Source of the DNA: a virus
Strand: one strand, 5' to 3'
Virus record (IMG/VR): IMGVR_UViG_3300044991_002708
Location: 1 to 23,134 of that record
Length of the DNA stretch: 23,134 nucleotides
In this document: positions 1,805-21,932 of the stretch, piece by piece
Layout of the letters: each line of letters begins with the position of its first letter
How positions within the stretch are numbered: position 1 is the first letter of the stretch
Made by a program: the position numbers and the translations under genes
The notes under the pieces: model-generated
Told to the model about the DNA's origin: nothing
The model's input: only the letters and a program-made list of their open reading frames with translations
Database searches by the model: none

Positions 1805-2191
1805 CTACAAGGTCATCAGCTTCAGCGTGCCGAGATAGAAATCCCCCGGTGCCGGATTGGGACGGGAGATCAGCGGTGTCGCCTCGAAAGCGGGTGCCTC
1901 GTGATGACGGAACATGACCAGCCAGGACTGGCCGCGCAGCGTCAGCGGGTACATGGCCCCCGGACTGCGTGCTCGCAGTTCAATGGCTTCGACCTGCTCG
2001 CGGGTGAACCACCCAGCATCCGGTTCCGAGGTCAGCGTGATCTGTGTGCCGCTCTGGATGCCGCCATAGAACACCACCAGCGAGCCATCGAGCGCGCGCT
2101 TGACTGATTGCGCTACGGCGGCATTGGCAAACTCATCGGTCCAGACCAGACCATCGGGCAAGGGGACGCCGTCTAAAGAATTGATGCTCAT
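1805..2191 (-). CDS. Conserved phage tail-associated protein (128 aa), function unknown
   Basis: A 128-aa frame whose ATG (2191) overlaps the stop of the 861-aa gene as ATGA, so translation is probably coupled. It begins MSINSLDGVPLPDGLVWTDE and carries segments such as VFYGGIQSG, TLRGQSWLVMFRH and a C-terminal YLGTLKLMTL. I recall this general pattern from small proteins near tail-tip genes of other siphophages and prophages, but I cannot name a Pfam family with certainty. No membrane segment or catalytic motif is visible. Its position after the tape measure and the large 861-aa protein suggests a small tail-tip or adaptor protein. Confidence 0.8.
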   Translation of the reverse strand: MSINSLDGVPLPDGLVWTDEFANAAVAQSVKRALDGSLVVFYGGIQSGTQITLTSEPDAGWFTREQVEAIELRARSPGAMYPLTLRGQSWLVMFRHHEAPAFEATPLISRPNPAPGDFYLGTLKLMTL

Positions 2192-4773
2192 GTCCAGATC
2201 ACCTCCACGACATTGGTTCCGTTTTGCAGCAGGGCATGAAGTTGCCCGTCGAGATAGGCGGGAATCCCGCCCGGGTAGTCCGCCTCCGCGAGGCCGGTTC
2301 GCGCCAGGACCAGCGTCGGATGCTTTGTGACTTGCGTCGAGATACCCCGGTAAGTGGACGAGCCGTTGTAGGGCGCCACCAGGCCATCGACGAGATACTG
2401 CTCGACCGCACTGGCGTTGGCCCAGTCACCCACCAGGGTCGTCGTGCCATGACCATCCGCCGAGGCGGAACTGATCGAGAAGCGGCGTCCGTAGCGACTG
2501 ATATAGGTCTCGCGGCTCATGCTGGCCGTCTTGGTTTCCTCGAAGGGATCCCAGCGCCAGCGGGCAGCCTCGTACTGCGCGTTGCCAGCGACGGTGATGG
2601 CATTCATATCGGCGATGATGTCCCAGGCCACTGTATAGGGACCGCCCAGTGGCCAGGTCCAGATCTTGTAGCCCTGGCCGTTGTCGAACAGCCAGTAACT
2701 CTGAGATGAGGTGTAGGCCGAGTGGTTTTCGTTCATAAAGCAGTCGCCGGTGAAGTCCTGCGAGGCAACCACTGACGTGACACCGTTGGCGGTCGAGGTC
2801 AAGGCAAAGCCGATGGTCTGCAGATTCGAGCCGCTCTGGTCGAGCGCGGTTGAGGGGCAGTAGCGCGGACTGTAGTTGTAGCCGGTGTAGCCCGGCCCGG
2901 ACTTCACGTAGTAGCCCCCGGTCGGAAACTGGCTGCGCGTTACACCAGGGACTGCCACTTTCTTCTCACCACGAATGATCACGGTGACCGTGAGTCCGGT
3001 GGCGTATTGCGATCCCAGCGTCACACCCGGATCAGTATCGAAGGCGAACACCTCCTGCGCCAGCGGCACGGACGACACGCCACTGGGCTGATGCCAGTAG
3101 CGCGTATCGGCAGCACCGTAGAAGCCCCACGCCTCGGCACGCTGGCCGTCACTGGTAACGATCAGTGCCGCCGCGAAGTCATTCTTGTTGAGATAGACCC
3201 CATCGGCGATCTGCTGACTGGGCAAGGCCAGGCCCACGATCCCCTTGCCGGCGCCACTGACGCCGCTGGCAAAGCCCTGCATGGTGATGCCGGTGGTCCC
3301 CGGTGGCAGCGTGCTCATCGGCAGCAGGAACTCGACCAGATCGCTTTGGGCGTTGGCACCAAGATTCCGGACGATGACCGGATCGGCCCGACCGCCGCCT
3401 GCGCGTGAGGCAAATCCACCCAGCGGCAATACCACCACCATGCAGGCCGCGAAGGGAAACTCGTTGACCACCCGCAGGCGCACGAAGACCCCAACCCCAT
3501 TGACGGCACGCAGTTCGACCAGGCGGAACGCCGCCTTGTAGAGTTTGATGGTGCGTAGTTCCACGGTTTCGCGGAACGCCGCTGCTTCGGCCACGAAAGG
3601 CGCGCTGCCAGCGGTGAGCAGGTTGATGGCGCCGATGGTGCGTGTCGCCTGCGCACACAGTTCCCCGTCGTAGCGCACCTCGATCGCAACCTCCGTCATC
3701 GCAAAATCCACGACACCGGATTCATGGGTCCACGCACCGGCTGGATCGAAGTAGTTCCCCTCATCCGGCGCATCGAATCCTCGCCAGGTGAACGACCCGC
3801 TGTAGCCCCGGCCGGAATCCGGTGTGATGGGCCAGGACGCGCCTATCGCTGATTCCGGCGTGACCGGCTGAGCGAACCAGAAACTGCGTCCGCTGGGCGT
3901 ATGGCTGTAGCGATGCACCACCAGCCAGCGGGGGCCCTGGGCGCCAGGCTGCGGGAAGCCCGGCAGATCGATACGCATGCGTGCCAGATCGAAGGCATCA
4001 CCACGCGCTTCGAGTTCCGCCGATGGTGCCGGTTGCCGGATCAGATCCCAACTGACCCAATGGTTGAACACCTTGCTGCTGCTGATGCGAAAGCTGCCGT
4101 TGGTGAAGAGCTTGTGGATCACCTGCGACCACGGCAGGGTCTGATCGGTCGCGCTGAACACGGCGGTATCGGCCAACTCGCCACTGCCATTTTTGGTGGG
4201 CGGCGTGCCTTGCGCGGTCATCACTGTGTTCTGGAGATACGTGTTGCCGCCCACCGCGACCGGCCAGTGCAGGACATGGAACGGGATCGGCGGACAATCA
4301 GTTGTACTGCCGGCACCGCTACCGCCTGTACCGCCAGTGCCTCCTGTTCCACCTGATCCACCCGTCGCGCCGCCAGATCCATTGCCAGTGGGCGAACTGA
4401 TGCGCAGTGGAATGAGTGCCTTCAGTCCCGAACCGCCGCCGACAACGGTTGATCCCGCACCGCCACCGCGCAGCTGACTGGCCACACGAACAGCGACTCC
4501 GGATTTCGGGGTCTGATCCGGAGGAAAGCGACTGGCCAGGCACTGATTGACGGCATTCACTTGCGCGGTGGCCACCTGTTCGCTCAGTTGCGTGCGCAGC
4601 AGCGATTGCGGCCGCCAGGACTCGGTTGCCACCGTGAGCGCGTCGAGCCAGTCCAGCAAGGTCACTTCACAGTGGCTGACTTGCCCGGCGTCGACCAGTT
4701 CATCCCGGCTGGGCGTATCACAGTCGTAGAAATGCACCGTGACAGCGGCCGGCGGATTGGAGGCTGCGCTCAT
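2188..4773 (-). CDS. Large tail-tip protein with glycine-rich linker, unrecognised (861 aa)
   Basis: An 861-aa frame starting at ATG 4773, overlapping the tape-measure stop as ATGA. Three parts can be seen. There is a short N-terminal region (about 1-100) with scattered Cys. A glycine/serine/threonine linker follows at about 129-156, built of GGTGG-type repeats. A long C-terminal body (about 160-861) is rich in beta-prone, Tyr- and Trp-containing sequence. There is no signal peptide, no membrane helix and no hydrolase motif I can identify. In lambda the genes after the tape measure are M, L, K, I and J; this protein does not resemble gpJ or the NlpC-type gpK. By size and position it may be the central tail-tip or host-contacting protein. 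That is inference from context. Confidence 0.8.
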   Translation of the reverse strand: MSAASNPPAAVTVHFYDCDTPSRDELVDAGQVSHCEVTLLDWLDALTVATESWRPQSLLRTQLSEQVATAQVNAVNQCLASRFPPDQTPKSGVAVRVASQLRGGGAGSTVVGGGSGLKALIPLRISSPTGNGSGGATGGSGGTGGTGGTGGSGAGSTTDCPPIPFHVLHWPVAVGGNTYLQNTVMTAQGTPPTKNGSGELADTAVFSATDQTLPWSQVIHKLFTNGSFRISSSKVFNHWVSWDLIRQPAPSAELEARGDAFDLARMRIDLPGFPQPGAQGPRWLVVHRYSHTPSGRSFWFAQPVTPESAIGASWPITPDSGRGYSGSFTWRGFDAPDEGNYFDPAGAWTHESGVVDFAMTEVAIEVRYDGELCAQATRTIGAINLLTAGSAPFVAEAAAFRETVELRTIKLYKAAFRLVELRAVNGVGVFVRLRVVNEFPFAACMVVVLPLGGFASRAGGGRADPVIVRNLGANAQSDLVEFLLPMSTLPPGTTGITMQGFASGVSGAGKGIVGLALPSQQIADGVYLNKNDFAAALIVTSDGQRAEAWGFYGAADTRYWHQPSGVSSVPLAQEVFAFDTDPGVTLGSQYATGLTVTVIIRGEKKVAVPGVTRSQFPTGGYYVKSGPGYTGYNYSPRYCPSTALDQSGSNLQTIGFALTSTANGVTSVVASQDFTGDCFMNENHSAYTSSQSYWLFDNGQGYKIWTWPLGGPYTVAWDIIADMNAITVAGNAQYEAARWRWDPFEETKTASMSRETYISRYGRRFSISSASADGHGTTTLVGDWANASAVEQYLVDGLVAPYNGSSTYRGISTQVTKHPTLVLARTGLAEADYPGGIPAYLDGQLHALLQNGTNVVEVIWT

Positions 4774-7748
4774 GAGGCCCGCGAAAGTTCGCGCAGGGCA
4801 CTGGCCAGTGCCATCGCCGTATCGCGGGAGGACTGCACCGTATGGGCCTTGCCACCGACATGGAAGCGCAGATCGACAACGTCCCGGGCCGGTGTGAAAG
4901 AGGCTCCGGTGCCAATGGGTGCCTGGGCAAGGATTGACCCGACCGCACCGCCGGTCGCAAAGCGTGGCAGTGCAGGCATCGCCGGCAGCAGTCCCACATT
5001 GACCGCCTCGAAGAAAGCCTGGCCGAATTTGCGCACCGACGCGGCACGCACTACGAACTCGCCGGCCGAGAGCAAGGCGGGAATGGAATCCGAGGTCTCT
5101 GTGCCGGGGCCAGTGATTCTTCCGGTCAATCGTCGGAATCCGGCAGCGACAGCGGCTCCACCATCGGCCAGGCGTTGAACCGGATAAATCAGACCACCAC
5201 CGGCATTGCTTTGCACCGTTTGCACATAGACGGTATGCACGCTGCTGGTCGGTCGCGTCAGTTCCGATAGTGCGTTGCGCCAGAAGCTGAGATCAGGGCG
5301 CGGGGTATGGTTGGCCTGGGTCGGTGCCGAGAGCGTGATCTTCAGATCCTGGACGAATGACGCCAGTGCCGCGCGGGGTTTGTCGAAGGACATGGTGGCC
5401 GGTAGTTCGACGCCACCGGCGGCCAGGGTCGATTTGAGCTTCTCGATGTCGGCCAGGACCTTGCTGGTATCGGCCTCGACCTTCTGCTGCAGGACGCGGT
5501 TCTCGGTATCGGCTTTGAGTTTGTCGAGGCTGGCCTCGGCCTCTTTCGTATCGGCCTGAATCTTCGCCACCAGTGCCTGGGCTTCGGTCAGCGCCTTGAG
5601 CTTTTCCACACCGGCGCGAGCGGCCTCGATATCGATATCGAGTTGCCATTTGTCCTTCTGCAGCAACTGCTGGCGCAGCTTGCCCAGTTCTTCCGTGACC
5701 GACGCCAGCGAACGCTTGGCTTCGTCGGCACCGCTACCGGCGGCACTCGCCGCCTGCTTGTGGGCATCACCAAGTCCTTTGAGCGCCGCATCGGCAATCG
5801 CGGCCGACTCCTTGATCTGGCCGATCGCATTGGCTGCCGCCTGGCCTTCGGAAACGACCGTCTGGGTGACGGTCTTGCCGTTCTGCTCGACTTGCCGCGT
5901 CACGGCCGAGGCCGAACGTTCCGCCAGGGCAATGGCATCCTCGGCGAGTTTGCGCGCCTGCTCAAAATTGCCAGATGCCAGGGCTGCACGTGCCTGGGCT
6001 TGCTTTTCATCAATCTGGCGCAGGCGGTCCTGATAGGCGGCGTACTCATCAGCCCCCTTGCGAGCCAACTCGCGTATCCGGTCTTCGACCGACAGACGTA
6101 GATTGAGGCGTGCTTCATCGGCAGCCTTGGCCGCCTGCAGATGGCGCTGTTCCTCGGCGATCAGACGGTCGACGGTGGCGCGGTAGGCTGTCTCCAGTTG
6201 GCTGTAGAGGCTGATCCGGGCATCGATGGCCTGACGCTCGACCGCCTGCACATCCTGGCCCGCCGCGCGAGCCAGAGCGACCGAGGCCCCATAGCTGGCG
6301 CTCCACGCTGACTCCATCTGCCGCGCTGCCGTCTCGATGGCGGCGATTTTGTCGCGCTCGGCGGTGAGCAGCGTTTGCGCCGAATCACGAATGGCGGCCG
6401 CTTCAGAGCGATACGCTGTCTGTGCGGCGGCTTCCTGACGCTTGTAATTGGCCTCAATCTCGGTGACACGGGCATCCCAGATCGCCTTGATGTCGGCGGC
6501 CACCTGTTTGTAGTTCGCGCCGAGTTGCTTGATGGTCTCGGTGGCTTTCTTGATCTCGGCATCCATCGCCTGCCGGATGGCCTCACCGACCTGAGTTGCG
6601 GCACCCTGGACCGAGCGCAAGGCCTCGGCCGTGGCAGGCAACGCCGCCTTGAGCCGTTCGGCGGCCTGAGCGGCCAGGGTCATCTGGGTCTTGACCGAGA
6701 GGGTTCCGGTTGCCCCGATTTCTTCCAGAGCGGCATTGAGTTGCTGCAGTTGTTCGCTCTGACGCGCCAGTCGATCTGTTTCCTGGGTCATTTCCCGGAT
6801 CTGCTGGATTGCCGAGACAATGCCCCGGCCGATTTCCCAGACGGCCACGGCGGCGAGCACCGGAAGGAAGCGCATAAAGGCGGCTCTGAGGAGACTGACT
6901 GCCTCCAGCAACTTGGCGACCGCTGCCACACCTTTGACGGCCAGCACCGCGAGCAGGATCTCTCCCAGAATGCGCAGGGTGGCGATGATGGCGTCACCGT
7001 GACTGGCCAGCGCGACCAGGGCATCGGCCAGACGCTGCAGTGCGGGCAGTGCCGCTTCGGCAATGCGCATCGCAATGCCCGAGAGCGCCTGTTTGACGGT
7101 ATCGAGCGTGTCGTTAAATTTCTCGGCGGCGCGGGCGGTGTCGCCACTGATTTCCAGGCCGAGTTCCTTGAACTTCTGCTTGAGTTGCTCGATGCCGGCC
7201 CGTCCCTGATTGAGGAAGGGAATCAGATCGACACCGCTTTTGCCAAAGAGCTTCACAGCCAGCGCCGATTTCTCTGCCCCATCGGGCATGGCGGCGAAGG
7301 CGTCGGCCAGATCGAGCAGGACGTCCTCGGTAGGCCGCAACTGACCGGCCGCATCCTTGACCGAAACACCCAGTCGGCTGAAGGTTTCAACCTGCTCCTT
7401 AGAGCCACTGGCCGCCTCGACCATGGCGGTGGCCAGCTTCTGCATGCCCTTCGCCAGACCTTCGAGGGACACGCCGGATTGCTCGGCGATCGGTTTGAGC
7501 AGCGACAGCGACTCCACCGAGATGCCGGTCTTCTGCGACAACTTGGCGAGATTGTCCGCCGTATCCAGCGCCGCCTTGCCGGCAGCCACCAGTGCACCCA
7601 CCGAGAGCGCAGCACCCATTGAGGCCAGCAGGCCATTGACCGACTTGGCGGCCGAGGTGATGTTCTCCAGACCCGACTTGACCGAGGCGAACGCCTGCCG
7701 GGTCTGGTCTATCGCGGTGATCAGTATCTGGGCGCGGTCAGAGGCCAT
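4770..7748 (-). CDS. Tail tape measure protein
   Basis: A 992-aa protein, the longest in the window, placed after the tail chaperones as in lambda (gpH position). It acts as a ruler inside the tail tube and is used during DNA ejection. Visible parts: an N-terminal phage tape-measure-like region (about 1-230) with LSQKTGISVESL and LFGKSGVDLIPFL; a hydrophobic, membrane-seeking stretch (about 254-304); a long Ala/Glu/Lys/Gln-rich coiled-coil region (about 320-790); and a C-terminal region with GRITGPGTETSDSIPALLS and GEFVVRAASVRKFG, a pattern common at tape-measure ends. The start overlaps the preceding 217-aa gene by 11 nt. By the usual rule of about 0.15 nm per residue it predicts a tail near 150 nm. 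The TMP assignment is strong. Confidence 0.93.
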   Translation of the reverse strand: MASDRAQILITAIDQTRQAFASVKSGLENITSAAKSVNGLLASMGAALSVGALVAAGKAALDTADNLAKLSQKTGISVESLSLLKPIAEQSGVSLEGLAKGMQKLATAMVEAASGSKEQVETFSRLGVSVKDAAGQLRPTEDVLLDLADAFAAMPDGAEKSALAVKLFGKSGVDLIPFLNQGRAGIEQLKQKFKELGLEISGDTARAAEKFNDTLDTVKQALSGIAMRIAEAALPALQRLADALVALASHGDAIIATLRILGEILLAVLAVKGVAAVAKLLEAVSLLRAAFMRFLPVLAAVAVWEIGRGIVSAIQQIREMTQETDRLARQSEQLQQLNAALEEIGATGTLSVKTQMTLAAQAAERLKAALPATAEALRSVQGAATQVGEAIRQAMDAEIKKATETIKQLGANYKQVAADIKAIWDARVTEIEANYKRQEAAAQTAYRSEAAAIRDSAQTLLTAERDKIAAIETAARQMESAWSASYGASVALARAAGQDVQAVERQAIDARISLYSQLETAYRATVDRLIAEEQRHLQAAKAADEARLNLRLSVEDRIRELARKGADEYAAYQDRLRQIDEKQAQARAALASGNFEQARKLAEDAIALAERSASAVTRQVEQNGKTVTQTVVSEGQAAANAIGQIKESAAIADAALKGLGDAHKQAASAAGSGADEAKRSLASVTEELGKLRQQLLQKDKWQLDIDIEAARAGVEKLKALTEAQALVAKIQADTKEAEASLDKLKADTENRVLQQKVEADTSKVLADIEKLKSTLAAGGVELPATMSFDKPRAALASFVQDLKITLSAPTQANHTPRPDLSFWRNALSELTRPTSSVHTVYVQTVQSNAGGGLIYPVQRLADGGAAVAAGFRRLTGRITGPGTETSDSIPALLSAGEFVVRAASVRKFGQAFFEAVNVGLLPAMPALPRFATGGAVGSILAQAPIGTGASFTPARDVVDLRFHVGGKAHTVQSSRDTAMALASALRELSRAS

Positions 7749-8391
7749 GCTTCGTCAGTTGCTGCAGGATGGATGAGGTCAATTTCGGTAGTTGTGAACG
7801 GACAATGCCGGGCAGATCCAAGCGGCCACGCAGGGTGACCATCGGTACCAGCACAGCAATCGGAATCTCCTGGCCACGCTTGATGGACTTGGCACCGGTG
7901 CGTCCGCGCTCGGCACGCTTGAAGCGGCGCAGTTCGGCGGCGTTTTCCTTGATGACTTCCGCCATGAGGATCACCTTGCCGTTCTTTTGAATGAAGAAGG
8001 CGTTACCGGTGCGCATCAGGCCATCGATGACACGTCGGAAGGCCTTGCGGCCCAGACGCTGGTGTTCGGGCAGCAAGGGGATCAACATCTTTCCGCCAAT
8101 CGTGCCACCTCGCGTATGGATGCCAAGCCAGGGAATGCGCGAGCCGATCATCAGGGCGGGAAACTTCGCCGGGCTGCCGGCATAGAGCTTGTGCCGCATC
8201 GAGCGCACGAAGCCGGCCTTCCTGACCTTAAACGCGGACTGCATGCGCGCCTGCACCGTCTGCGCAATCTCCCTGCCGGCTGACTTCATGCCGGCTTCCA
8301 CGGCCTTGCGGATGGCCCGGCGCTTCTCGGGTATCCAGCTATCGAGGCGCTTCGGATCGAGCAATCCCGAGGTGGTCAGCGACAGCTTCAT
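7738..8391 (-). CDS. Minor tail protein, resembles the DUF6441 family
   Basis: A 217-aa basic protein between the tail chaperone pair and the tape measure. Its ATG (8391) lies within the stop of the G-T frame (ATGA), and its own stop overlaps the tape-measure start by 11 nt. The C-terminal pattern PIAVLVPMVTLRGRLDLPGIV and the earlier FFIQKNGKVILM resemble a small phage tail family I remember as DUF6441, found at this same position. The N-terminal third is Arg/Lys-rich (MKSAGREIAQTVQARMQSAF). Role unknown; possibly a tail completion or initiator protein comparable to lambda Z, though the gene order differs from lambda, where Z lies before the tail tube gene. The family name is from memory. 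Confidence 0.8.
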   Translation of the reverse strand: MKLSLTTSGLLDPKRLDSWIPEKRRAIRKAVEAGMKSAGREIAQTVQARMQSAFKVRKAGFVRSMRHKLYAGSPAKFPALMIGSRIPWLGIHTRGGTIGGKMLIPLLPEHQRLGRKAFRRVIDGLMRTGNAFFIQKNGKVILMAEVIKENAAELRRFKRAERGRTGAKSIKRGQEIPIAVLVPMVTLRGRLDLPGIVRSQLPKLTSSILQQLTKHGL

Positions 8392-8968
8392 CGTTCAAGT
8401 TCCTTGAGCAAGTCCTTGATCTCCGCACCCCCGCCGCGTGCAGCGGTCAACTGGATGGTCAGTTCAGCGGCCAGTGCGTCACGTTCGTTGCGGTCGATGG
8501 CCTTCAGGAAAGAGCGAACCTGCGCCAGCGAATAATTCAGGACGTCGCCGTAGTGGTGCCCGTGGGCAATGAGCCGCTGGAGAAGGATTCCCCAATCTGA
8601 CCGATCCGGCCCGCCAGACGCAGCAGTGCTGGCGTGACCTGGCGGATAAAAAAATCGGCATTGACCTCAAACACCGCTTCCGCCAGCCGAATCGCGCAGT
8701 CCAGTGGCAGATCAGCGACCCACTCGCGCGGACGGCGCACCGCGACAGACAATGCAATCACCGCATCGTCGCCGCGCTCGCCAAACAGCGCGAGCCAGTC
8801 GACGTCGCTGGTGATGTGCTGGGCAAACGGTCGAATGGCACGCACGAAGGCAGGCAACTCGCCGACCTTCAGTGGTGTCAGGTCCACGGCTTCACCACCG
8901 ATTTCGATGGACACCGGTACCGGCGGCAAGGCGTCCTGGGAGGACTCAGAGGAAGTGGTCATGGCCAT
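8388..8968 (-). CDS. Tail assembly chaperone G-T fusion, made by -1 frameshift
   Basis: A 193-aa product is predicted if ribosomes slip back one base at TTTTTTT (8654-8648, minus strand). The zero frame reads GAT TTT TTT ATC; after slipping it reads TTT TTT TAT and stays open for another 87 codons to a TGA at 8388. The added part contains DWGILLQRLIAHGHHYGDVL and then a charged helix (RNERDALAAEL, KDLLKELER). It resembles the T-part of lambda-type G-T chaperones and has no start of its own. The shifted frame ends exactly at the ATGA start of the next gene, which fills what would otherwise be a 145-bp empty gap. In lambda, gpG and gpGT load tail tube subunits onto the tape measure. Expected coordinates: join of 8968-8648 and 8648-8388. 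Confidence 0.87.
8537..8968 (-). CDS. Tail assembly chaperone G (unshifted product)
   Basis: A 143-aa acidic protein read without frameshift. The start at ATG 8968 overlaps the tail tube stop (TGATG); a second ATG at 8959 is possible and may have better Shine-Dalgarno spacing. It contains VSIEIGGEAVDLTPLKVGELPAFVRAIRP, shortened here to its key parts IGGEAVDLTPLKVGELP and FVRAI, a pattern seen in phage tail chaperones and tail-assembly proteins. It sits between the tail tube and the tape measure, as expected for gpG. Shortly after the slippery site the zero frame runs into low-complexity SSGSLPTGTTTATS and stops, as usual for the short form. In lambda the G:GT ratio is set by frameshift efficiency. 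Confidence 0.85.
   Translation of the reverse strand: MAMTTSSESSQDALPPVPVSIEIGGEAVDLTPLKVGELPAFVRAIRPFAQHITSDVDWLALFGERGDDAVIALSVAVRRPREWVADLPLDCAIRLAEAVFEVNADFFIRQVTPALLRLAGRIGQIGESFSSGSLPTGTTTATS
8648..8654 (-). promoter_or_regulatory. Slippery heptamer TTTTTTT for -1 frameshift
   Basis: Seven T on the minus strand are phased as T TTT TTT in the gpG frame (GAT TTT TTT ATC), the canonical X XXY YYZ form for simultaneous -1 slippage. The -1 frame is open on the far side to 8388. GC-rich sequence follows and could fold, but I did not identify a definite pseudoknot. Confidence 0.82.
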
Positions 8969-9723
8969 CACCCCAGTTGAACGATGCGCCCGAACTGGCC
9001 GAGCACTGCGTCGTAGGGTTTTGAACTGTCAGCCAGTAGCGAGCCTTCCATCTCGAACTTGTTGAGGTCGTTCGAAATGATGTCGAACTTCTTCAGGGGA
9101 TCGAAGGCGACGCGGTACAACTCGATCAACACCTTGGCATTGCTGGCCGCCGTATTGACGCCTTCGAGCCGCAGGAAGCGCTCCGGCAAGGGTTGCGTGA
9201 AGATGCCAATCGCGGTGACGGCGCCGTAGGTGTAGCTGGCTTTGAATGGTGCGGTCAGACCGGTGACATCAAGGAATTGGATCGCCCCGAAATCCACGTC
9301 GGCCGTGTAGTGCGTACCCAGCGTCAGGGTGGCTGGCGTTCCGGCCGAATCGACGACCGACAAAGCCGAGACCTTGGGGTGTGCCAAGAAATAGCGGTCG
9401 CCGACCACTGGGGTGGCACCGCCGATGGATTCGTTGGTGACGCTGCCACCGGTCCCGGTTTCGTGGTTGCCGTAGATGGCCAGGGCGAGGTTTTCTTTGG
9501 TGAATTCCTCGATGGTCAGTGCAACTGTGGCGGACTTCTGTTTCACCAGGCGCAGATCGACGGCGCGCTGACCGGTCTGGCTCTCGTAGTGCTCGATCAC
9601 GTCGGTCTTGAGGGATAGCGACAGATCGGCCACGTTGCCTGGCGTGCGGACATTGATCGGCTCGCCATTGACGTTGCGTTCGCCGAGATAGACCCGGCCT
9701 TGGAAGGATGCGTAGTAGGACAT
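8968..9723 (-). CDS. Major tail tube protein
   Basis: A 251-aa protein with a strong Shine-Dalgarno (AAAGGAG) before ATG 9723, placed directly upstream of the tail chaperones, where lambda has gpV. It starts MSYYASFQGRVYLGERN and has segments typical of phage tail tube proteins: a short beta-rich N-terminus, KSATVALTIEEFTKENLALA, and a C-terminal LIELYRVAFDPLKKFDIIS followed by a FEMEGSLLAD strand. Subunits stack as rings around the tape measure to form the tube. The stop overlaps the gpG start (TGATG). The middle (about residues 95-170) may be an inserted Ig-like or surface domain. The tail-tube call rests on gene order and general pattern. Confidence 0.87.
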   Translation of the reverse strand: MSYYASFQGRVYLGERNVNGEPINVRTPGNVADLSLSLKTDVIEHYESQTGQRAVDLRLVKQKSATVALTIEEFTKENLALAIYGNHETGTGGSVTNESIGGATPVVGDRYFLAHPKVSALSVVDSAGTPATLTLGTHYTADVDFGAIQFLDVTGLTAPFKASYTYGAVTAIGIFTQPLPERFLRLEGVNTAASNAKVLIELYRVAFDPLKKFDIISNDLNKFEMEGSLLADSSKPYDAVLGQFGRIVQLG

Positions 9724-19690: not shown

Positions 19691-19724
19691 GCTTGGCTTT
19701 CCTCCAGAACAGCGCGTTCATGCA
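19691..19724 (+). promoter_or_regulatory. Repeated upstream element, copy 1
   Basis: GCTTGGCTT (19691-19699) followed, 17 nt from its first base, by AACAGCGCGTTCAT (19708-19721). The same two blocks at the same spacing occur at 21013 and 21488, each about 65 nt before the start codon of a plus-strand gene. Here the distance to ATG 19755 is 64 nt. A weak sigma70-like reading is possible (TTGGCT, 17-nt spacer, GTTCAT). AACAGCGCGTT is also a near-palindrome that could bind a regulator. This copy is more diverged after the second block. Confidence 0.72.
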
Positions 19725-20651: not shown

Positions 20652-20945
20652 TTACTTCTTGGCTTTCTTCTTCGGTGCGACAGCGGCCTTGAAGCCAGCG
20701 CCAGCCTTGAAGGTTGGAACCGTTGTCGCAGCAATTTTCAGCGCTTCGCCGGTCTTGGGGTTCTTGCCAGTACGTGCGGCACGCTTGGATGCCTTGAAGG
20801 TACCGAAACCAATCAGCGCGACATCATTGCCCTTGGCAACGGACGCGGTAATGATTTCGAGCAGTGCATCGATGGACTTGCCGGCAGCGGCCTTGGAGAC
20901 CTCAGTCTTGGTGGCCAGTGCTTCGATCAGTTCCGATTTATTCAT
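20652..20945 (-). CDS. HU-family DNA-binding protein
   Basis: A 97-aa protein starting at ATG 20945, with GGGAG upstream; a longer reading from 21059 has a non-family N-terminus. It starts MNKSELIEALATKTEVSKAA, then IDALLEIITASVAKGNDVAL, followed by IGFGTFKASKRAARTGKNPK with TGEALKIAATTVPTFKAGAG. This is the full HU/IHF fold, including the GFGTF turn and the RxGRNPxTGE-like arm (here ARTGKNPKTGE). The C-terminal KKKAKK tail adds basic charge. HU bends DNA and may assist packaging, replication or regulation. It is transcribed away from the next plus-strand unit, and the intergenic region holds copy 2 of the repeated element. Confidence 0.95.
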   Translation of the reverse strand: MNKSELIEALATKTEVSKAAAGKSIDALLEIITASVAKGNDVALIGFGTFKASKRAARTGKNPKTGEALKIAATTVPTFKAGAGFKAAVAPKKKAKK

Positions 20946-21012
20946 GGTGGTGTCGCTCCCTTGGCTTGGAAAACCAGTGATTCTCCCACCAATTGAACTT
21001 CCATCATAAAGA

Positions 21013-21046
21013 GCTTGGCTTCGTGATTGAACAGCGCGTTCATACG
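21013..21046 (+). promoter_or_regulatory. Repeated upstream element, copy 2
   Basis: GCTTGGCTT at 21013-21021 and AACAGCGCGTTCAT at 21030-21043, then ACG, with the same 17-nt offset as the other copies. The next 34 bases up to the Shine-Dalgarno also match copy 3 well. It lies in the divergent region between HU (minus) and the 64-aa gene (plus), 67 nt before ATG 21080. Confidence 0.78.
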
Positions 21047-21079
21047 CACATCGCATCAATCAACTCGAAGGAGATCACC

Positions 21080-21274
21080 ATGCAAACCAACACCGCCCTC
21101 CAGCAGCACACGAATTACGACGCTGACGACCATGCCTACCTGACCGCCAAGGGCTGGACGGATGCAGAGATCCTCGCGCGATGGGACGCCGAAGCCAAGT
21201 GCGGCAAAGGACCTTGCCGGTGGCAAACCGAGTCCGCCCGTAACAAGCTCGCCGCCGTGACGGGTCGCAAGTAA
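21080..21274 (+). CDS. Conserved small protein (64 aa), function unknown
   Basis: A 64-aa protein with AAGGAG before ATG 21080, which decides the start over an in-frame extension from 20993 that runs through the repeated element. It has YDADDHAYLTAKGWTDAEIL, then ARWDAEAKCGKGPCRWQTES and ARNKLAAVTGRK. I recall closely similar short proteins in phage and integrative-element accessory regions of Proteobacteria, without a function. Two Cys (GKGPC, AKCGK) are close together but not a metal motif. First of a two-gene unit with the 62-aa gene. Confidence 0.78.
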   Translation: MQTNTALQQHTNYDADDHAYLTAKGWTDAEILARWDAEAKCGKGPCRWQTESARNKLAAVTGRK

Positions 21275-21299: not shown

Positions 21300-21488
21300 A
21301 TGGAACCCACCAACACAGGCAACGACCAGGAATCATCGATTCGCTGGCTGCTTGAAAACCGTCGACCCGAGGTGTCGCGTGCTCAAGCACTTCGCATCCT
21401 GCGGATTGCCATTGCCGGAGACTGCCAGGCAGTACGTCTGCTCGATCAAATGGACGGCGAAAATGATTCAAAAATGTTCGACAAATAG
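21300..21488 (+). CDS. Small hypothetical protein (62 aa)
   Basis: A 62-aa acidic protein with a good Shine-Dalgarno (GAGGAG) before ATG 21300, 25 bp after the 64-aa gene. It is largely helical: SSIRWLLENRRPEVSRAQAL, then RILRIAIAGDCQAVRLLDQM. Its TAG stop at 21486-21488 shares its last base with the first base of copy 3 of the repeated element. No family recognised and no catalytic motif seen. Confidence 0.72.
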   Translation: MEPTNTGNDQESSIRWLLENRRPEVSRAQALRILRIAIAGDCQAVRLLDQMDGENDSKMFDK

Positions 21489-21521
21489 CTTGGCTTCACA
21501 ATCAAACAGCGCGTTCATACG
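21488..21521 (+). promoter_or_regulatory. Repeated upstream element, copy 3
   Basis: GCTTGGCTT at 21488-21496 and AACAGCGCGTTCAT at 21505-21518, then ACG, again at a 17-nt offset. The following stretch to the AAGGAG Shine-Dalgarno of the 125-aa gene is conserved with copy 2, including CAAC-CGAAGGAGAT. It lies 67 nt before ATG 21555, matching the spacing of copy 2. Confidence 0.78.
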
Positions 21522-21554
21522 GGTGTCGCAACGATCAACCCGAAGGAGATAACG

Positions 21555-21932
21555 ATGACCACCCAGCAAACCATCCCCGCCACCCAGAACGAAGCCTGGG
21601 GCTTCTTTGGCACGATGAACGACACCGCCGCAGCCGCCTGGCCGATCGCGATGACCGCAATTTCGGATGCCACCTACCAACCCCTCGAATCGGTCAGGCT
21701 GTTCCTCGACAGCCGCCACGGACGCCATTTTGCGGACGACGTCCTAAACGAGTTGCTGCGGGGTCACACGATCCAGCAGGCCATCGACGCCGCAGTAACG
21801 CGGTGGATGGGCTGGACGATTGGCCGCCAAACCAGCAAGGACTACGGCATCCCCAAGGGGCTGCCTTACCTCACAGGCTTCGTGATCCACTGCGAAGTGA
21901 CCGACGAGTCCTTCGAAGCCGAAGCAGCGTAA
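21555..21932 (+). CDS. Conserved hypothetical protein (125 aa)
   Basis: A 125-aa protein with AAGGAG before ATG 21555. It contains NEAWGFFGTMND, AWPIAMTAISDAT, SVRLFLDSRHGRHFADDVLN, then AAVTRWMGWTIGRQTSKDYG and IPKGLPYLTGFVIHCEV. I recall similar proteins as conserved unknowns in accessory regions of mobile elements (phages and ICEs) of Proteobacteria. SRHGRHFADDV is the most distinctive stretch. No signal or membrane segment is visible. The 68-aa gene follows after 10 bp, probably in one unit. Confidence 0.82.
   Translation: MTTQQTIPATQNEAWGFFGTMNDTAAAAWPIAMTAISDATYQPLESVRLFLDSRHGRHFADDVLNELLRGHTIQQAIDAAVTRWMGWTIGRQTSKDYGIPKGLPYLTGFVIHCEVTDESFEAEAA

Follow-up and report, generated by a model that had tools for sequence, protein, structure and literature searches.

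A very probable programmed −1 frameshift at a conserved T-run heptamer joins the two frames of a phage tail assembly chaperone

How the second of two overlapping frames is translated is the question raised by the locus between the tail tube and tape measure genes of IMG/VR virus record IMGVR_UViG_3300044991_002708. The window, by which we mean the whole stretch of 23,134 nt that was analysed, is a 23 kb viral contig of 62% GC. When the first frame, G, is read to its own stop at 8539-8537, positions 8392-8536 are left uncovered by any gene. The initial annotation had given this gap as 8388-8536 and had explained it by a programmed −1 frameshift at a run of seven Ts, which would join the tail assembly chaperone G to a T part; a coding gap of this kind is indeed present once the shift is disregarded.

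The genes around the locus place it in a phage tail module. The order of this module is tail tube, G/T, DUF6441 protein and tape measure, with the DUF6441 gene as one extra gene separating T from the tape measure gene (Table 1). The tail tube gene is the upstream neighbour of G and overlaps it at TGATG. The head module is of lambda type, with a GpA terminase, a lambda-family portal, an S49 protease and a capsid protein E, and it also encodes a head-tail attachment protein (PF05354). The virus is a tailed phage, probably a siphovirus, and near relatives of its tube gene are found in betaproteobacterial genomes or bins (Propionivibrio, Thiobacillus, Comamonas, Rhodoferax and others) and in some gammaproteobacteria. 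Elsewhere in the window, an 861-aa protein with no match in Pfam or PHROGs is encoded directly after the tape measure gene (2188-4773, minus strand), and a gene for an HU-type DNA-binding protein (PF00216) lies at 20652-20942 (minus strand). A 31-nt repeat, GCTTGGCTT...ACAGCGCGTTCAT on the plus strand, precedes three small plus-strand genes (19691-19721, 21013-21043 and 21488-21518) and grows at two of them to 75 nt (80% identical) that end at the start codon (21008-21082 and 21483-21557); the repeat may act as a promoter or regulatory leader common to these genes.

Table 1. Positions of the G/T locus and its neighbouring genes in the window.
Feature	Coordinates	Strand	Remarks
Tape measure protein, 992 aa	4770..7748	−	several PHROG tape measure families, e.g. 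phrog_8462 E 1e-47
DUF6441 protein	7738..8391	−	PF20039 E 7e-82; downstream neighbour, ATG overlaps T stop
T part, −1 frame, 86 aa + stop	8388..8648	−	
Gene G, tail assembly chaperone, 143 aa, 15.2 kDa	8537..8968 (ATG 8968, stop 8539-8537)	−	
Slippery heptamer T_TTT_TTT (Phe-Phe codons)	8648..8654	−	phase checked
GAGGT, Shine-Dalgarno-like, 9 nt before heptamer	8664..8668	−	candidate stimulator
TGA closing the −1 frame, 12 nt upstream of heptamer	8667..8669	−	
Major tail tube protein	8968..9723	−	NCBIfam NF052337 tail_tube_6XGR E 9e-60; PHROG 807

The identification of G as a tail assembly chaperone is supported by its profile match and by gene order. G matches PHROG 1442, ‘tail assembly chaperone’, with an E value of 4e-26, and all 28 of the 28 relatives scanned match the same family. 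AlphaFold2 predicts a beta hairpin and helices for G (pLDDT 78), and the nearest entry to this model in BFVD is the chaperone G of phage DLP_5, followed by tail proteins and chaperones of other phages and, further down, by the ‘Pre-tape measure frameshift protein G’ of Xylella phage Sano. Among solved structures, the HK97 chaperone 2ob9 (Z 3.7 over 85 residues, rmsd 4.3, with unrelated entries reaching Z 3.5) and yqbN 3klu (Z 4.6) both rank in the top three, at scores too weak to establish a shared fold, and Foldseek returned no significant match for G in the PDB. In Pfam neither G nor T had a significant hit, NCBIfam and a sequence search of the PDB returned no match for either, and the profile libraries used placed G in no family in common with lambda G.

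We next consider where a shift could occur. The plus strand carries A7 at 8648-8654, which is T7 on the coding strand, and its phase, GA T_TTT_TTT A, is the one originally claimed when it is read off the coding strand of G: the codons are GAT TTT TTT ATC, the canonical X_XXY_YYZ phase. Since the −1 frame is closed at the TGA at 8669-8667, the shift must fall between there and the G stop, and T7 is the sole in-frame X_XXY_YYZ heptamer of that interval. From T7 the −1 frame runs, as had been reported, for 87 codons (86 residues and a stop, ending at 8388), and its TGA at 8390-8388 overlaps the ATG at 8391-8389 of the next gene as ATGA. The G-T fusion would be 193 aa long, with a mass of 20.9 kDa as against 15.2 kDa for G. 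T7 by itself is not rare, there being one T7 or A7 in the window against 0.48 expected and at least one in 30 of 100 shuffles; what sets it apart from chance is the phase in which it lies, its location and its conservation.

Conservation was followed in two sets of relatives. A search based on G in viral contigs yielded 80 loci, making 81 sequences with the window, 69 of them distinct; one pattern of this search covered the slip-site stretch, and the search was repeated through the tail tube gene, without G. T_TTT_TTT or T_TTT_TTC stood in phase in 81/81 sequences of the G-based set (69/69 distinct), and T_TTT_TTN in 121 of the 127 distinct genes taken as G in the tube-anchored set (last base T in 117, C in 3 and A in 1), counts that are uncorrected for the phylogenetic linkage of the relatives and overstate the number of independent events. 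Past the G stop, the −1 frame is open for at least 49 codons in the relatives from the G-based search. Among the six tube-anchored loci where no site was detected, T7 was present on re-reading at one where the wrong ORF had been picked first (L177), the bases at the slip site were masked at another (L229), and the automatic pick gave no recognisable G at three (L211, L228 and L230). The only clear exception is L210, a more distant locus with a divergent G, no slip site and no T. By eye, the opposite strand after the G stop of L210, at 7150, could encode a small membrane-like protein where T would be. A Burkholderiaceae assembly (L185) has T6A, a run one base shorter, and its G ends about five codons later; this is a broken copy or a sequencing error.

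Codon choice at the site departs from that in the rest of G. The first Phe codon is TTT in 100% of sequences, as against 26% (59/229) elsewhere in G, where TTC is dominant, and the codon before it is GAT in 68 of 69 sequences and AAT in one, while elsewhere in G GAC is commoner than GAT; the tube-anchored set agrees on both biases. Synonymous identity per column is 1.00 at GAT and at the first TTT, about 0.50 being expected, whereas the last base of the second Phe codon is free; identity is also raised over much of the G/T overlap. Tandem slippage of two tRNA-Phe by one base from UUU-UUU or UUU-UUC would account for the phase and for the U that always precedes the first Phe codon, and it would need UUU at the first Phe while leaving U or C free in the last place.

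The T frame is under purifying selection. Past the G stop, changes among nine of the nearest sequences number 398, 288 and 770 at T-frame codon positions 1, 2 and 3, and comparison of the window with each relative gives dN of 0.30-0.39 and dS of 0.95-3.1, the larger dS values being saturated, with dN/dS at about 0.15-0.36. The residues W, L, G, H, Y, Q and G occupy columns that do not vary across 28 relatives. PHROG 13355, an unannotated family listed as of unknown function, matches T in 28/28 relatives and is the T part of the chaperone in the window and 27 relatives. The structure model of T is of modest confidence (pTM 0.49) and had no significant Foldseek match in BFVD. The description of T as ‘tail-chaperone-like’ holds in one sense only, namely that chaperone genes of other phages have a second frame homologous to T; a homologue of the shifted frame among tail chaperones was found in phages Summit and DLP_5, at about 28% identity over G-T.

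These features bear on other ways in which T might be expressed. Chaperone genes are split in some phages, and T could function as a separate subunit, which would allow it to be a gene with a start of its own, reached by re-initiation or coupling without a frameshift. The T frame of the window, however, holds no ATG, GTG or TTG until codon 66 past the slip, beyond most of the conserved core, which excludes an independent start at a usual codon there, and 36 of the 69 distinct sequences have none between 30 codons before the slip and the conserved Trp. As a separate T would also leave the invariant T TTT TT[T/C] unexplained, we consider it extremely unlikely. Slippage of RNA polymerase on T7, with a gained or lost base putting T in frame, would fit the seven-base homopolymer that forms the site in the window and at most tube-anchored loci. 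Polymerase slippage usually needs longer runs, however, and of 190 sites 45 are runs of just six (mostly T6C) and a single one reaches eight, such that the X_XXY_YYZ pattern is kept but run length is not; this explanation is very unlikely. The chance is negligible that T is the relic of a decaying frame, or that a sequencing error at T7 hides one continuous fused gene. Homopolymers are error-prone, and the Burkholderiaceae copy with one T fewer appears broken, but the run is found in more than 100 distinct sequences from independent contigs, a recurrence that rules out the error in run length allowed for in the initial annotation, and purifying selection on the T frame speaks against decay.

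The sequences show directly that T7 lies in the slippery phase with an open −1 frame beyond it, that both parts have homologues, that the heptamer is conserved and that the T frame is under selection; from these data a programmed −1 frameshift at T7 very probably makes the G-T fusion alongside G. The original interpretation has thus held up, through the chaperone profile, the gene order, the conserved T protein, the fixed heptamer and an annotated parallel in Summit, with the slip itself predicted from sequence. G would mostly be translated unshifted to give the 143-aa chaperone, while a smaller share of ribosomes, on reaching GA T_TTT_TTT A, would move back by one base as both tRNA-Phe pair anew with UUU, and would continue in the −1 frame to give the 193-aa G-T. 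By analogy with lambda, the frameshift rate would lie in the low per cent; G would serve to coat the tape measure protein and the T part to bring in tail tube subunits, and neither G nor G-T would stay in the virion. U_UUU_UUU induces far less slipping in E. coli than A_AAA_AAG does (PMC5009743), and a modest slip site of this kind fits the low GT:G ratio in lambda.

A weak site might be helped by nearby sequence. The Glu codon within GAGGT is GAG in 161 of the 165 sequences that have Glu there, as against 62-65% elsewhere in G, and because GAG is favoured there beyond codon usage, this suggests that GAGGT may be a Shine-Dalgarno-like stimulator of slippage. The frameshift in dnaX has such a Shine-Dalgarno-like stimulator upstream. 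Downstream, RNA folding gave no consistent structure (mean z −0.4 over 69 sequences), and a consensus fold of close relatives with z −2.0 against column shuffles rests on a gapped stretch; a downstream RNA structure is not convincing, and we claim no stem. We tentatively propose that the weak U_UUU_UU[U/C] could rely on the upstream GAGGU, and not on downstream RNA structure, to set the ratio of G to G-T, though we think this somewhat doubtful.

The annotation of these phages can be corrected accordingly: T, which has been assigned to a family of unknown function (PHROG 13355) or missed, is the second half of the chaperone. The T-bearing group is a large set of phages and prophages, mostly of betaproteobacteria, and the near-complete fixation of T_TTT_TT[T/C] in GC-rich genomes provides a clean natural data set on the retention of frameshift sites. 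The general picture of tail assembly is unchanged by this finding.

The finding is well supported and ordinary, its kind being already known from lambda G/GT (Levin 1993; Xu 2004, as cited in PMC5009743 and PMC4378225), for which the model of G and GT roles is reviewed in PMC5009743. The window resembles lambda in its order of tube, G, T in the −1 frame and tape measure, and in a −1 shift near the 3′ end of G that adds a C-terminal extension, with two product sizes expected. It differs in its heptamer, T_TTT_TTT against GGGAAAG in lambda, the latter as given in the initial annotation. That difference stands, but the all-T type is not novel, as T TTT TTC has been published for a related Pseudomonas group (PMC4378225); an exact-word literature search for T-run heptamers returned no match. 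The published slip site is that of Pseudomonas phage PaMx73 (PMC4378225). This phage and Ab30, both D3112-like phages of P. aeruginosa, share with the window a homologous tube (about 39% for Ab30), the position of the chaperone and T_TTT_TTC at the corresponding VNxxFF motif, which in Ab30 was seen here; they differ in the last base, C, and in being Mu-like phages with another head module. Pseudomonas phage B3 likewise has a homologous tube and chaperone and a −1 frame open beyond the G stop, but its heptamer is C_CCT_TTC, near the same Phe-Phe position. T_TTT_TTC also occurs in pAN, and T_TTT_TTT in Klebsiella phage Kp4852-3. In Stenotrophomonas phage Summit (MZ326862), the record annotates a joined product named ‘tape measure chaperone frameshift product’, and the only in-frame heptamer, situated in the overlap, is T_TTT_TTT, as read from the sequence. 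Summit and DLP_5 have homologous tube, G and T, and their T_TTT_TTT lies in the matching phase, 33 codons ahead of the G stop; they differ from the window in sequence, at the identity given above, and in their larger genome (96 kb), and in the DLP_5 record T stands apart as a hypothetical protein.
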